From: Acidobacteriota bacterium
GTDB lineage: Bacteria > Acidobacteriota > Vicinamibacteria > Fen-336
Direction of reading: 5' to 3'
Length of the DNA stretch: 32,306 bases
NCBI GenBank assembly: GCA_003223555.1
Contig: QHVM01000049.1
Coordinates: forward strand, 20,019-52,324
The translations under genes were made by a program, and so were the position numbers. The notes beneath the pieces were generated by a model that saw only the letters and a program-made list of their open reading frames with translations, had not been told where the DNA came from and searched no databases. Below, piece after piece: positions 2,900-26,456 of this stretch; position 1 is the first letter of the stretch; the number at the start of each line of letters is the position of its first letter.

Positions 2900-3060
2900 T
2901 TAACGCAGAGGACGCAGAGGAACGAACGGAGAGGACGCAGAGGAAATCAATGGAATACTGACGAACCGGCGCACCAACTGAATCATCCGTTTATTTCATT
3001 CCGTCTCTGCGTCCTCGAGCCTGGTCGGCCTTTCTCCGCATCCTCTGCGTTCAAAGGCAA
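2900..3060. repeat. Inverted-repeat element, copy E1 (CGCAGAGG family)
   Basis: The plus strand starts TTAACGCAGAGGACGCAGAGG (less one end base, 2900-2920), with a second GGACGCAGAGG at about 2933-2943. It ends in the inverse, CTCTGCGTCCTCG at 3004-3016 and CATCCTCTGCGTTCAAAGG at about 3039-3057. The interior is AT-richer and codes for nothing recognisable. It fills the gap between the HEAT gene stop (3066) and the cheR start (2890). The same family recurs at 5440-5618, 26271-26456 and, as halves, near 23800 and 24925. Confidence 0.85.
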
Positions 3061-3065
3061 CGCCG

Positions 3066-5432
3066 CTACCGGGGGGCGAGCTTCTTGAGGGCGGTGGCGG
3101 CGGCCTGGCGCACCTCGGCCGAGGGGTCGGCGGCCTTGAGGTCCATGAGCGGGCGCAGCGCGTCCATGAAGCCGCCCTCGCCGAGAGCCAGCGCCGCCTC
3201 CGCCCTCACCCGGGCGCTGTCGTCGGCCAGGCCGGAGAGCAGCAGCTTGCGGGCGCGCGCGTCCTCCAGCCGTCCCGCCAGGTCCACCGCGAGCCTCCGC
3301 GTCTCGACGTCCGAGCCGACAAAGGCCCGCTCGAGGTCGGGCAGCGCCGCGGCTCCCATCCGTCGCAGGGCCTCGAGCGCCGCGGGTTGGAGCGCGGCGT
3401 CGGCCAGCGCGCGCACGAGCGCCCCCGCCGCGCGGCCGTCGCCGATCTCGCCCAGGGCGGCCACCACTGCCCGGCGCACGGTGGCGTCGCCGTCGGCCAG
3501 GCGGCCGACCAGACCCGGCAGCGCCTTGCCGCTGCGGATGCGGCCGAGGGCGGTGGCCGCCGCGCAGCGCACGCTCCAGTGCTCGTCCTCCAGGGCCAGC
3601 AGCAGGGGCGGCACGGCCTGGGGGTCGCCGATGCTGCCCAGGCTCTCCGCGGCGGCCCGGCGCAGGTTGCGGTCCAGGTCGCGCAGCACCGCCCCCAGCG
3701 GCCGCACCGCGGAGAGGGCGCGGATGGAGCCCAGCGCTTCCACCGCCGCGAAGCGCAGCTCCTTGCGCCGGTCCTCGATGAACGCCAGCACGCGCGGCAC
3801 CGCTTCCGCGCTCCGCACCTGGCCCAGGGCCCGCAGGGCCACGAAGCGCATCTTCGGATCGGGGTCGTCGAGGAGCGGGATGAGGTCGGCGGCCGCCTCG
3901 GGGTCCTCGAGCTTGCCCAGCGACAGCACGGCCTGCTGGCGCACCAGGCTGCTCTCGTCGCCGAGGGCGCGGCGCAGCCGCTCGGCCACGCCCGGGGCGT
4001 CGATCTCCCCCAGCGCCTTGAGCGCGGCGCGGCGCACGCTCTCCCGGGCGTCCTCGGCGAGCGACATCAGCGCCGGAGCGGCGGAGGGATCGCGCACGAG
4101 CCCGAGCGTCTCCGCGGCCCGGATCCGCACCTTCACGTCGTCGCTGGCGAGCGCCTGCACGAGCAGGGGCAGCACTCGCGCCGGCGAGAGCCGGGCCAGC
4201 GCCCCCATCGCGCTCTCCTGGATGAGCTCGCTCTCGTCGCCGAGCAGCTCGAAGAGGAGCATGGCGGCGTCCTCGTCGCCCAGGCGGCCGATCGCCGCCG
4301 CCGCCTCGGCCCTCACCTCCACCGACGGATCGTGGATGAGAGGCGCGACGAGCGCGATCCCTTCCGGGGGCGCGACGAACCCCAGGCAGCGGATGGTCCC
4401 CTGCCGCACGGCGTCGTCGGCGTGCTCGAGGCCGGCCGCCCACGCCGGAGGGTCCTGGAACCCGATGGAGACGAGGGCGTGGGTGGCGTACTCCTGGAGG
4501 GCCGTCTCGGTCAGCATGGCGACCAGCGGCCGGACCGCCCGCGGCTCCTTCAGCCAGCCCAACGTGATGGCGGCGGTGCGCCGGTTGCTCGGCTCTTCGT
4601 CGGCCAGGGCGGCCAGCAGGTGGTCGACGAGCCCCTGGCGGCGCAACGCGGCCTGCACTTCGGGATCGAGGCTCTCGCCGCTGGCGGTGGCCCGCTGCTC
4701 GATGGCGACCACGGCCTGGATGGCCATGTTCCTCAGCAGGGGGTCGGGATCGTAGAGGTGCGGCACCAGGCGGGGCAGCGCCTCCCGCCCGGCCAGTCGG
4801 CCCAGCGCTTCCATGGCCGGGCCGCGCAGGAGCTCGTCGCCCAGCAGGTCGAGCAGGGCCGGGGCGGCCTGGGGGTCGCCGATCTCCCCCAGCGCGCCGA
4901 TGGCCGGGTATTGGAGCCACGGCTCCGTGCGCAAGACCTCGACGAGGGGGAGGACCGCCCGGGGGTCGCCGATCTGCCCGAGGCCGGCCGCGGCGGCGTG
5001 GCGGACGTTGAGGTCCGGGTCGGCGAGGGCGGCGATGAGCCTTTCCACCGCCCGCCGCTCGCGGCGCGCCCCCAGCATCACCGCCGCGAAGTTGCGCACC
5101 TCCTCGTCCGGGTCGTCGAGCAGCTGCAACAGGGCCTGGCCGGCGCGCGGGCCCAGCTTGACGTAGATCTCCATGGCCGAGTTGCGCATCCCCGCGTCTT
5201 CGTCGTTGCGCAGCGCCGCCTCCAGCCGCGGCAGCAGCGCTTCCTCGGGGAAGGCGGCCAGGGCCTCGGCGGCGGCCTGGCGCACGGGCCAGCTCTCGTC
5301 CGCCACCGCCACCAGCAGCGGGGCCACCGCCTCCGGCTGGCCAGAGCGGCCCAGCTCCTCGACCACCCGCCGCCGCACCGGCTCTTCCCCGCTGCGCAGC
5401 GACTCGAGCGCCGCCTGGATGTCAAGCGTCAT
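3066..5432 (-). CDS. Large HEAT-repeat protein of the chemosensory operon
   Basis: 788 residues made almost entirely of about 25 HEAT/PBS-lyase-type repeats of around 31 residues. The recurring motif is DPxxxVRxxAAxALGxIGDxxAVxxL; examples are DPDLNVRHAAAAGLGQIGD and DRNLRRAAAESLGSIGDPQ. No signal peptide, membrane segment or catalytic domain is visible, so it is probably a cytoplasmic alpha-solenoid scaffold. It lies between mcp and cheR and is bracketed by two inverted-repeat elements, E1 and E2. A role as a scaffold or adaptor for the receptor array or for CheR/CheB is inference from position only. The start ATG at 5432 is preceded by GCGTTTAAAGGCAAAG, which is the outer end of E2. Confidence 0.93.
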   Translation of the reverse strand: MTLDIQAALESLRSGEEPVRRRVVEELGRSGQPEAVAPLLVAVADESWPVRQAAAEALAAFPEEALLPRLEAALRNDEDAGMRNSAMEIYVKLGPRAGQALLQLLDDPDEEVRNFAAVMLGARRERRAVERLIAALADPDLNVRHAAAAGLGQIGDPRAVLPLVEVLRTEPWLQYPAIGALGEIGDPQAAPALLDLLGDELLRGPAMEALGRLAGREALPRLVPHLYDPDPLLRNMAIQAVVAIEQRATASGESLDPEVQAALRRQGLVDHLLAALADEEPSNRRTAAITLGWLKEPRAVRPLVAMLTETALQEYATHALVSIGFQDPPAWAAGLEHADDAVRQGTIRCLGFVAPPEGIALVAPLIHDPSVEVRAEAAAAIGRLGDEDAAMLLFELLGDESELIQESAMGALARLSPARVLPLLVQALASDDVKVRIRAAETLGLVRDPSAAPALMSLAEDARESVRRAALKALGEIDAPGVAERLRRALGDESSLVRQQAVLSLGKLEDPEAAADLIPLLDDPDPKMRFVALRALGQVRSAEAVPRVLAFIEDRRKELRFAAVEALGSIRALSAVRPLGAVLRDLDRNLRRAAAESLGSIGDPQAVPPLLLALEDEHWSVRCAAATALGRIRSGKALPGLVGRLADGDATVRRAVVAALGEIGDGRAAGALVRALADAALQPAALEALRRMGAAALPDLERAFVGSDVETRRLAVDLAGRLEDARARKLLLSGLADDSARVRAEAALALGEGGFMDALRPLMDLKAADPSAEVRQAAATALKKLAPR

Positions 5433-5439
5433 TGCCGCT

Positions 5440-5618
5440 TTGCCTTTAAACGCGGAGGACGCAGAGGAAAGAACGAAGAGGACGCCGAGACGGATGAATG
5501 AAGGCGAGAACGGACGGTGGAACCCGGGTCCCCGCGACTACCCGCCTCGGCCCCATCACTCATTTCCTTCTCTGCGTCCTCGCTTCTGGCCCTCTCTGCG
5601 TCCTCTGCGTTAAGAGCC
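5440..5618. repeat. Inverted-repeat element, copy E2 (CGCAGAGG family)
   Basis: The plus strand begins TTGCCTTTAAACGCGGAGG (5440-5458) then ACGCAGAGG, and ends CTCTCTGCGTCCTCTGCG (about 5592-5609) followed by TTAAGAG. A second inner right-arm copy, TCTCTGCGTCCTCGC, lies near 5570-5583. The element spans nearly the whole gap between the mcp stop (5624) and the HEAT gene start (5432). Its outer end lies 7 bases from the HEAT start codon. The central part (5490-5560) has no gene that I recognise. Confidence 0.85.
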
Positions 5619-5623
5619 CTGCG

Positions 5624-9001: not shown

Positions 9002-9847
9002 TCATTCAGCGGTCCCGACGCCTTCCCGCAGCTCGAGGGCCAGGACCTTCGGCAGATCCATGAGGATGATCAGGCGGTCCTGGAGCTTGGCCACGCCGCG
9101 GAGGTAGTTGGCGTCGATCTCCACCACTTCCTCGGGGGCCGCTTCGATGCTGGCCACGGGCACCTTCAGCACCTGGGAGGCGCCGTCGACCAGCAGGCCG
9201 ACCAGCCGCTCCCGCACCTTGACGACCACGATGCGTGACGGGCGGGCGGCGCCGTCCACCTGCCCCAGTCCCAGCTTCCGCTTCAAGTCCACGACCGGGA
9301 TGATCCGCCCGCGCAGGTTGATCACTCCCTTGATGAAGTCCGGCGCCCGCGGGACGGGGGTGATCTCGCTGACGCGGATGATCTCCTGGACGAGGCGGAC
9401 GTCCACGCCGTACTCCTCGCCGGCGAGGAGGAACGTCGCTAGGTGCTCGGTGGCCTCGGCCGCCTTGCGCTCCTCCCGCACCGGCGCCCCGAAGATCGAG
9501 ATGCTGTGGGCGGGCGCGGCCTCGCCCTCGGGTGTGCGCCGCTCGACCACCGGCGGGGCCGACGGAGTGGCCGGCTCCAGGGCCCCGCTCGCCGCCAGGG
9601 CCAGGATGTCGGCGGCGAGGCCCGAGGAGGGCAGCGCGATGCGCGCAGGGTCTTCCGCTCGCGCGGAATGAATCCGCGCTCGCTCATCGAGTTGGGGCGC
9701 TCGCGCGGAATGAATCCGCGCTCGCTCATCGAGCGGGGGGGACTCTCCGGTCCCCCCAGATCCCCCCGGCCGCGTCTGGGCCGACTCCGGGGAAGACCCG
9801 GCGGTCCTCTTTCGCGCCGCTCTCTTGCGAGGGGCCGGGCGAGCCAT
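9002..9847 (-). CDS. cheW: CheW-type coupling protein with a long disordered N-terminus
   Basis: 281 residues; ordinary CheW is about 150-170. CheW links receptors to CheA. The CheW fold occupies about 138-275, from LATFLLAGEEYGVDVRLVQEI through INLRGRIIPVVDLKRKL to KLQDRLIILMDLPKVL. Residues 1-135 are basic, Pro/Ala-rich and probably disordered. Within them, residues 39-52 and 53-66 are a near-exact 14-residue duplication (LDERARIHSARA), encoded by two REP-like DNA units. The ATG at 9847 lies 6 bases after the cheA stop. An internal start after the duplication cannot be excluded, since the conserved domain begins much later. Confidence 0.9.
   Translation of the reverse strand: MARPAPRKRAARKRTAGSSPESAQTRPGGSGGTGESPPLDERARIHSARAPQLDERARIHSARAEDPARIALPSSGLAADILALAASGALEPATPSAPPVVERRTPEGEAAPAHSISIFGAPVREERKAAEATEHLATFLLAGEEYGVDVRLVQEIIRVSEITPVPRAPDFIKGVINLRGRIIPVVDLKRKLGLGQVDGAARPSRIVVVKVRERLVGLLVDGASQVLKVPVASIEAAPEEVVEIDANYLRGVAKLQDRLIILMDLPKVLALELREGVGTAE
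9656..9733. repeat. Two tandem REP-like units (36 bp each, 42-bp period) inside the cheW ORF
   Basis: Identical 36-base units lie at 9656-9691 and 9698-9733. Each contains the palindrome GCGCGGAATGAATCCGCGC (7-bp stem, ATGAA loop). They are followed at about 9734-9756 by a GGGGGGAC...GTCCCCCC hairpin. The 42-bp period keeps the reading frame, giving the duplicated LDERARIHSARA peptide. The loop and arrangement resemble the intergenic copies at 8950-8970 and 18331-18351. Confidence 0.85.
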
Positions 9848-26262: not shown

Positions 26263-26270
26263 AAGGCTTC

Positions 26271-26456
26271 TTGAACGCAGAGGCCGCCGAGGAACGCGCA
26301 GAGGCCGCGTACCTGAGGCTCTCCGGCTTGCACGTCGGGCTGCTCATCAACTTTGATGTGACCGCACTGAACTGGGGTATCCGACGTGTGGTCAACTCCT
26401 ATCCTGATTCTCCGCGGCCTCTGCGGTCCTCTGCGACCTCTGCGTTAAAGGGCAAT
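26271..26456. repeat. Inverted-repeat element, copy E3 (CGCAGAGG family), with GxxExxY gene tail
   Basis: The left arm starts TTGAACGCAGAGGCCGCCG (26271-26289) and repeats CGCAGAGGCCGCG. The right arm is CCTCTGCGGTCCTCTGCG then ACCTCTGCGTTAAAGGGCAA (26438-26455 region). The element fills the argJ-argH gap: it starts 9 bases after the argJ stop, and its far end lies 5 bases from the argH start. The interior encodes the C-terminal part of a GxxExxY-family protein. Confidence 0.88.
26310..26411 (+). pseudogene. C-terminal remnant of a GxxExxY-family protein inside element E3
   Basis: The frame reads YLRLSGLHVGLLINFDVTAL then NWGIRRVVNSYPDS, which I recognise as the conserved C-terminus of GxxExxY proteins (typical form LRLTGLRVGLLINFNV...L..GIRRVVN). 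The N-terminal part with the naming motif is missing. The tail joins straight onto codons made from the repeat arm (MNAEAAEERAEAA). The family's function is not established. This indicates that the element was once a gene-carrying unit, later shortened by deletion. Confidence 0.7.

Follow-up and report, generated by a model that had tools for sequence, protein, structure and literature searches.

A family of two-hairpin palindromic elements in an Acidobacteriota genome and its congener, with one member in frame within cheW

The cheW gene in the stretch of Acidobacteriota DNA analyzed here (32,306 nucleotides, hereafter the window) contains palindromic units that very probably reflect the insertion of a non-autonomous, mobile, REP-like element into the disordered N-terminus of the CheW protein, the element being one of a family of which in-frame copies in protein loops and tails survive. 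The initial annotation of the window had proposed that REP-like palindromes lie in frame within cheW and add protein sequence to its product, and this is upheld by CheW orthologues that lack the units, by a start codon upstream of them and by the occurrence of the same DNA family both in unrelated genes and between genes.

The repeated units in cheW

The features of the locus, in window coordinates, are as follows.

9002..9847 (-): cheW ORF with the insert, 281 aa (P0001); CheW domain at residues 137-270 (Pfam)
9845..9847 (-): ATG start codon of cheW, upstream of the units
9614..9634 (-): LPSSGLA, the family-conserved CheW N-terminal motif, downstream of the units (alignment with 10 orthologues)
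9651..9654 (+): TCTT directly 5' of the element, an instance of the family's TCNT boundary motif (ANGA on the coding strand)
9656..9697 (+): first copy, a 42-nt unit with hairpin 1 only, lacking the second hairpin (repeat scan)
9661..9679 (+): hairpin 1 of the first copy, GCGCGGA-ATGAA-TCCGCGC, with a 7-bp stem and a 5-nt loop
9697..9769 (+): second copy, a full two-hairpin element (covariance model match of 86.2 bits, E 2.5e-15, with the copy itself among the 15 used to build the model)
9703..9721 (+): hairpin 1 of the second copy (pattern match and model pairs)
9735..9757 (+): hairpin 2, a G-run/C-run hairpin, GGGGGGGACTCTCCGGTCCCCCC (pattern scan and model pairs)

The repeat consists of CGCTCGCGCGGAATGAATCCGCGCTCGCTCATCGAG, present twice on the plus strand (9656-9697 and 9698-9739) with a period of 42 nt and with identity at all of the first 36 bases (36/36), and the two units are followed by GGGGGGGACTCTCCGGTCCCCCC (9735-9757) and then by a C-run. 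The two 36-base units, their 42-base period and the adjoining G-run hairpin are therefore as they had been annotated. Read on the minus strand and in frame with cheW, the units encode the peptides PPLDERARIHSARA and PQLDERARIHSARA, and AlphaFold models the CheW N-terminus without structure (block means of 37-46 over residues 1-70), in agreement with the proposal of a duplicated in-frame peptide within a disordered region. The core 19-mer occurs at 9661 and 9703, and a search allowing up to 3 mismatches returns 4 matches (these two places, each counted on either strand), a number reached in 0 of 100 shuffled sequences. The hairpin at 9735-9757 is the sole G6..C6 hairpin found in the window (shuffle mean 0.42), and the DNA fold of the unit region is better than that of 199 of 200 shuffles (z -2.8).

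The statement that the palindrome design matches intergenic copies within the window did not hold up, as the family was found there once, in cheW; no further site was detected by the 19-mer, the covariance model or the G6..C6 scan, and a looser inverted-repeat pattern matched at chance level. A second dispersed repeat, AACGCAGAGGACGCAGAGG..., is present in both orientations (2895-2942, 3028-3054, 5442-5489, 5594-5619, 26267-26314 and 26424-26453), and its sequence is unrelated to that of the cheW element. Separately, a minus-strand ORF at 3066-5432 consists of 93-nt repeats (a 31-residue period) and probably encodes a repeat protein.

The start of cheW

If the start of cheW were wrongly assigned, the units would be intergenic sequence drawn into the gene by an over-long ORF. 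Such a reading can point to our home-made codon-usage gene finder, which began cheW past the units at a GTG at 9550, to the modelling of the CheW N-terminus without structure, and to the caution about N-terminal REPs that is voiced in passages of Di Nocera et al. 2013 (PMC3733652). Against it, ATG, GTG or TTG occurs within codons 1-110 of the cheW ORF only at codon 1 (9845-9847) and codon 100, and no such codon separates the units from the conserved LPxSGLA motif (codons 72-78 of the window cheW). In ten aligned CheW orthologues, for which starts were picked by a pattern of our own and among which L059 (start not found) is not counted, a start region with M1 and K8 invariant (mostly as RKR) precedes the place of the units, and the LPxSGLA motif follows it. 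Since this conserved start region and motif lie on opposite sides of the insertion place, we have overruled the GTG at 9550 as misplaced and therefore regard the units as an insert inside translated sequence. The alignment of N-termini that had been suggested as a check finds relatives without the units in 10 of 10 aligned cases, plus an eleventh that is incomplete, and the closest orthologue (same genus, 82% identical) reads MAQTPSSRKRAPRKK...ESIVEPSRIALPSSGLAADIL across the insertion place. As judged from sequence, then, the units are inside the cheW ORF and downstream of what appears to be its sole plausible start codon, codon 1, and a true start beyond them is very improbable.

The element family and its distribution

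A pattern search allowing up to 2 mismatches located 19 places in the genome from which the window comes (G000), 15 of which were aligned to build a two-hairpin covariance model of 72 positions (L001, L014, L016 and L017 were left out). The family consensus is ~72 nt long and consists of hairpin 1 (GCGCGGA-RTGAA-TCCGCGC), a spacer, hairpin 2 (GGGGGGAC..GGTCCCCCC) and a C-run. With this model there are 65 matches in G000 at E<=0.01, including the 15 training copies, and 42 at E<=1e-4, and there are 64 matches at E<=1e-4 in a congener, G001 (titled Acidobacteria AA35). Among the 40 genomes searched, 12 other members of the bacterial family have 0 or 1 match each at E<=1e-4 (two with one each), and a genome from a different family of the same order has four. 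These four matches in G015 (C298 and C369; L082, L085, L087 and L089) are weaker and form two tandem pairs with ~90-nt spacing; they are perhaps a related element. In a sample of the phylum searched with stricter filters, G000 was the sole genome of 297 with a match at 1e-6.

When GTDB genomes were scanned for an exact 23-mer, isolate AA35 gave 13 stretches, Deltaproteobacteria MAGs gave two and a Bifidobacterium gave one. The last of these genomes has no model match at 1e-4 and otherwise one partial, weak match; the two Deltaproteobacteria MAGs have two model matches each at 1e-4, so that the family is not confined to the genus, and transfer between phyla is possible. The Deltaproteobacteria elements at L192 74-148 (-) and L188 4434-4525 (+) have the same hairpin-1 sequence, and one of them has a G-run second hairpin.

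Elements occur in both orientations. Of the 97 matches analyzed in G000 and G001 (see below), 59 fall into five stem types that pair over their full length (35, 11, 8, 4 and 1 matches, respectively), and the stems of the other 38 comprise 11 (GCTCGGGA/TCCCTCGC) that pair in their inner part only and 27 that fit none of these types. Tandem arrays recur in which the unit repeats about every 65-72 nt, and short-period arrays with hairpin 1 only and no hairpin 2 are found at independent sites (cheW of the window, L133, L140, L158 and L173), which suggests that tandem arrays arise by slippage with loss of the second hairpin. In cheW, an element of about 72 nt would have inserted and then undergone a tandem duplication and the loss of hairpin 2 from one unit.

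Copies within genes

Approximately 6 kb were fetched around the stronger copies (about 44 bits or more) in G000 and G001, which gave 97 matches at 85 sites; outside these sites are the 27 weaker of the 65 matches in G000 and 8 of the 64 in G001 (seven weak ones and a strong one at a contig end, C201). Genes were called with the home-made codon-usage gene finder at a coding density of about 91%. Strictly within a predicted gene are 30 of the 85 sites, and in 27 of these the best codon frame is the same on either side of the element; the two sides differ at L104, L108 and L112. With the margin loosened from 60 to 40 nt, which adds L137, L140, L147 and L158, and with cheW added by hand, an in-frame read-through ORF is present at 35 of the 85 sites (34 of them by gene finder) and not at the other 50. 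By genome, 9 of 32 sites in G000 read through in this way, as do 26 of 53 sites in the congener. The hosts between them read the element in all six frames, and conservation across the different hosts is at the level of the DNA, the opposite of the peptide conserved over varied DNA that had been envisaged as a counter-finding. As for the suggestion that the element spreads while keeping a reading frame open, in-frame copies are indeed seen, and they are best read as the outcome of selection on where copies survive.

In a Pfam scan of the 35 hosts, a domain match spans the element in nine: GH9 (L123), carbon-nitrogen hydrolase (CN-hydrolase, L125), UvrC RNaseH (L131), NFACT (L145), PAD (L153), RlmN radical-SAM (L157), HisF (L163), UvrD-type helicase (L166) and DAO (L173). 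Pfam matches stop or start at the element in DnaE (L128) and UvrA (L171), and in RNase R (L170) the element lies between domains. Seven of the 35 hosts have no Pfam match (L118, L137, L139, L140, L143, L147 and L154), and for these an open frame across the element says less, since many copies contain no stop codon. At seven sites, at or near the 4-nt overlap of two genes (L113 RecO, L114 PLP enzyme, L122 SNF2 helicase, L130 PBP, L132, L134 and L146), the upstream ORF reads through the element, which would thereby form a C-terminal tail. No gene split by an out-of-frame copy was found in six co-directional gene pairs adjoining elements (L116, L119, L120, L152, L165 and L167), a test that is weak for two of the pairs, in which the left ORF of L119 and the right ORF of L165 (2 of the 12 ORFs) have no Pfam match. 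Hosts or neighbors with roles in repair or replication include DnaE (L128), UvrC (L131), a UvrD-like helicase-nuclease (L166), UvrA (L171), RecO (L113) and a PolX-like protein (L115).

Empty sites and placement in loops

Comparison of the two congeners at the DNA level reveals filled and empty versions of the same genes. RlmN has an additional 72 nt and the UvrD-like gene an additional 75 nt in G001, both absent from G000, and DnaE has an additional 72 nt in G000 that are absent from G001. Among the orthologues readable at the junction, congeners included, no insert was found in nine for RlmN, eight for the UvrD-like protein and five for DnaE, all with ordinary short variable loops there; these counts exclude RlmN L203 and L204 and DnaE L211, L215, L216, L217 and L220, as well as HisF L245, which the junction patterns missed. 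The alignments from homologue searches mostly break at the insert. In HisF, the insert is in the loop after IDARR, and this loop is 16 residues shorter in G000 and shorter also in three other orthologues; compared by gene length, HisF of one relative, G006, matches the inserted HisF (840 vs 828 nt), which counts against the insertion reading. Overall, an element is present at the orthologous place for 2 of the 32 sites of G000 (among the fetched G001 loci), so the sites differ between the congeners.

RlmN and HisF had no other close copy in searches of G001, nor had the replicative DnaE in searches of G000, where the next best sequence was 31% identical; for the UvrD-like gene, a different contig of G001 gave a partial 88% match. 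The interrupted DnaE, RlmN and HisF genes presumably work. In the structure model of RlmN, 194 of 382 residues have a pLDDT of >=90, and the insert (residues 151-175; means of 56, 51 and 63 for blocks of ten residues) falls between a helix at 135-152 and a strand at 180-185; it is thus modelled as a low-confidence loop in an otherwise confident fold. Comparisons with PDB entries place the inserts of RlmN, the UvrD-like protein, DnaE and HisF between aligned blocks.

Boundary motif and reading frame

Of 84 boundaries, 44 have the tetranucleotide TCNT just before the element, and for those in genes the figure is 16 of 35; the background frequency of TCNT is 1.55% of positions. The count leaves out a single site of the 85, which lacks 12 nt upstream. 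On the other strand the motif reads ANGA, which includes AAGA, AGGA and ATGA. Comparison with empty sites is hampered at this motif by sequence divergence, and, with the insertion ends placed only approximately, TCNT may belong to the element itself instead of to its target.

Antisense frame 1 (GGSGG...ERARIHSARA) is used at 18 of the 35 in-gene sites, where 6.3 would be expected from the openness of copies outside genes and 9.1 from target phase combined with openness (P 0.001 for the latter; both comparisons are post hoc). A null model in which frames follow target frequency multiplied by openness was rejected as a misfit (chi-square P 6e-16), with sense frame 2 observed 5 times against 18.8 expected. 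Read post hoc, this misfit could reflect the loss of insertions at hydrophobic xTC-NTx codons and retention at polar codon pairs, and the frame bias would then be due to selection. One may go further and regard the element as adapted to coding sequence, its ANGA targeting and favored antisense frame together making insertions into essential enzymes nearly neutral. Insertion beside ANGA would then fall at xAN-GAx codon pairs, which are rich in Asp, Glu, Lys and Asn and typical of surface loops, or else where a start and a stop codon overlap as ATGA. The favored frame would supply a flexible GGSGG linker followed by a charged stretch. We consider such adaptation a tentative idea and rather unlikely.

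A possible mechanism and its alternatives

The history that best accounts for the cheW feature is that of a mobile element. Copies of it would land beside TCNT (ANGA when read on the opposite strand) in either orientation; within genes, those with an open frame in a loop, a linker, a tail or a gene-gene junction would survive, and the host protein, if expressed and active, would gain about 24-26 hydrophilic, linker-like residues. The two hairpins and the fixed boundary tetranucleotide resemble the substrates of REP/IS200-type single-strand transposition, and by analogy the mobilizer may be a single-strand HUH transposase with hairpins as its substrate, its gene having perhaps been lost or missed in the assemblies. 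No Y1 transposase (Y1_Tnp, PF01797, RAYT) was found in G000 or G001, both of which are fragmented, incomplete assemblies, and 5 of 14 control genomes were positive in the same search.

The cheW repeat might instead be a peptide motif, duplicated and selected at the protein level in CheW, rather than mobile DNA. The duplicated peptide is in frame, its 42-nt period is a multiple of 3, and the over-use of one antisense frame across hosts (the 18 of 35 noted above) leans the same way; the peptide is nevertheless absent from the orthologues, and closely similar DNA recurs between genes and in six frames of unrelated genes, which refutes selection on a peptide as a general explanation and leaves it scarcely credible for cheW. 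More can be said for functional RNA hairpins (terminators, mRNA-stability signals or coupling signals) selected near gene ends, with the in-gene copies as by-catch, as several copies are at gene ends or at the 4-nt start/stop overlaps listed earlier and as 50 of the 85 sites are outside ORFs by the criterion used. Yet copies in the catalytic domains of hisF, rlmN and the uvrD-like gene and within dnaE could hardly be terminators, and neither the differing sites of the two congeners nor the occurrence of both orientations favors a role as RNA signals, which we consider improbable.

Comparison with known systems

In-frame "selfish" palindromes are best known from Rickettsia, the Rickettsia palindromic elements (RPE) having reportedly been described by Ogata et al. 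in 2000/2002. The family described here shares with RPEs a short, palindromic, mobile form, in-frame presence in many unrelated genes, and occurrence both in genes and between them; it differs in being ~72 nt long, GC-rich and built of two hairpins, the two having been compared by description rather than by sequence. It thus appears to work like an RPE, a likeness for which we claim no kinship by descent. According to passages of a review on MITEs, RPEs are ~150 bp long, reside in obligate intracellular alphaproteobacteria and occur as in-frame inserts, with 44 copies in R. conorii, nearly half of them in ORFs (PMC10969869).

Parts of another paper describe intragenic GTAG and CGTC REPs, many of them in uvrABCD, recBCD and dnaE, which are thought to be tolerable in linkers or loops (PMC3733652). 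Here too UvrA, UvrC, a UvrD-like helicase and DnaE are among the hosts, but the present elements have two hairpins per unit and no tag at the hairpin foot. Membership in the GTAG superfamily was rejected because GTAG occurs 5 times across the 97 matches and their 12-nt flanks without sharing a position at the hairpin foot, and for the CGTC superfamily the tetranucleotide occurs six bases before the model start in 12 of 97 matches and at position 30 in 6 of 97, with no consistent tag. In the available text of that paper, Acidobacteria are not among the phyla listed for GTAG or CGTC REPs and are named only as owners of a tyrosine transposase group (PMC3733652). PARCEL repeats, as portrayed in portions of their description, are likewise palindromic coding sequences spread among genes, but what is conserved in them is an amphipathic protein domain, found mostly in membrane proteins (PMC2996958), whereas the present family conserves its DNA and not its reading frame. 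The hairpins and boundary tetranucleotide recall miniature elements derived from IS200/IS605, the difference being that no Y1 transposase was found in the two genomes. Such miniature elements (REPINs, PATEs) have hairpins and a conserved tetranucleotide at one boundary.

The initial annotation had called an element of this kind unusual; its behavior is so, and it has precedents in the Rickettsia RPEs and in the intragenic GTAG and CGTC REPs. In a literature search of partial coverage, we recognized no account of such an element in Acidobacteria. What appears to be new is an untagged, two-hairpin, protein-coding palindrome family with a boundary motif, in a host group not listed for GTAG or CGTC REPs. 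The outcome is the same as in Rickettsia and is reached at high frequency (35 of 85 sites) in a GC-rich bacterium with a 5.4-Mb genome and in its congener, both presumably free-living. DnaE, HisF and RlmN each bear an insert in the sole close copy that was found, and the congener retains empty sites, which makes the two genomes a source of paired natural insertion variants. With these one may ask how random loop insertions are tolerated by proteins and perhaps put to use later on, and if the reading frame is set by the element or by selection alone. The overlap with the published REPs in uvr genes and dnaE makes a target or survival bias toward replication and repair genes testable.
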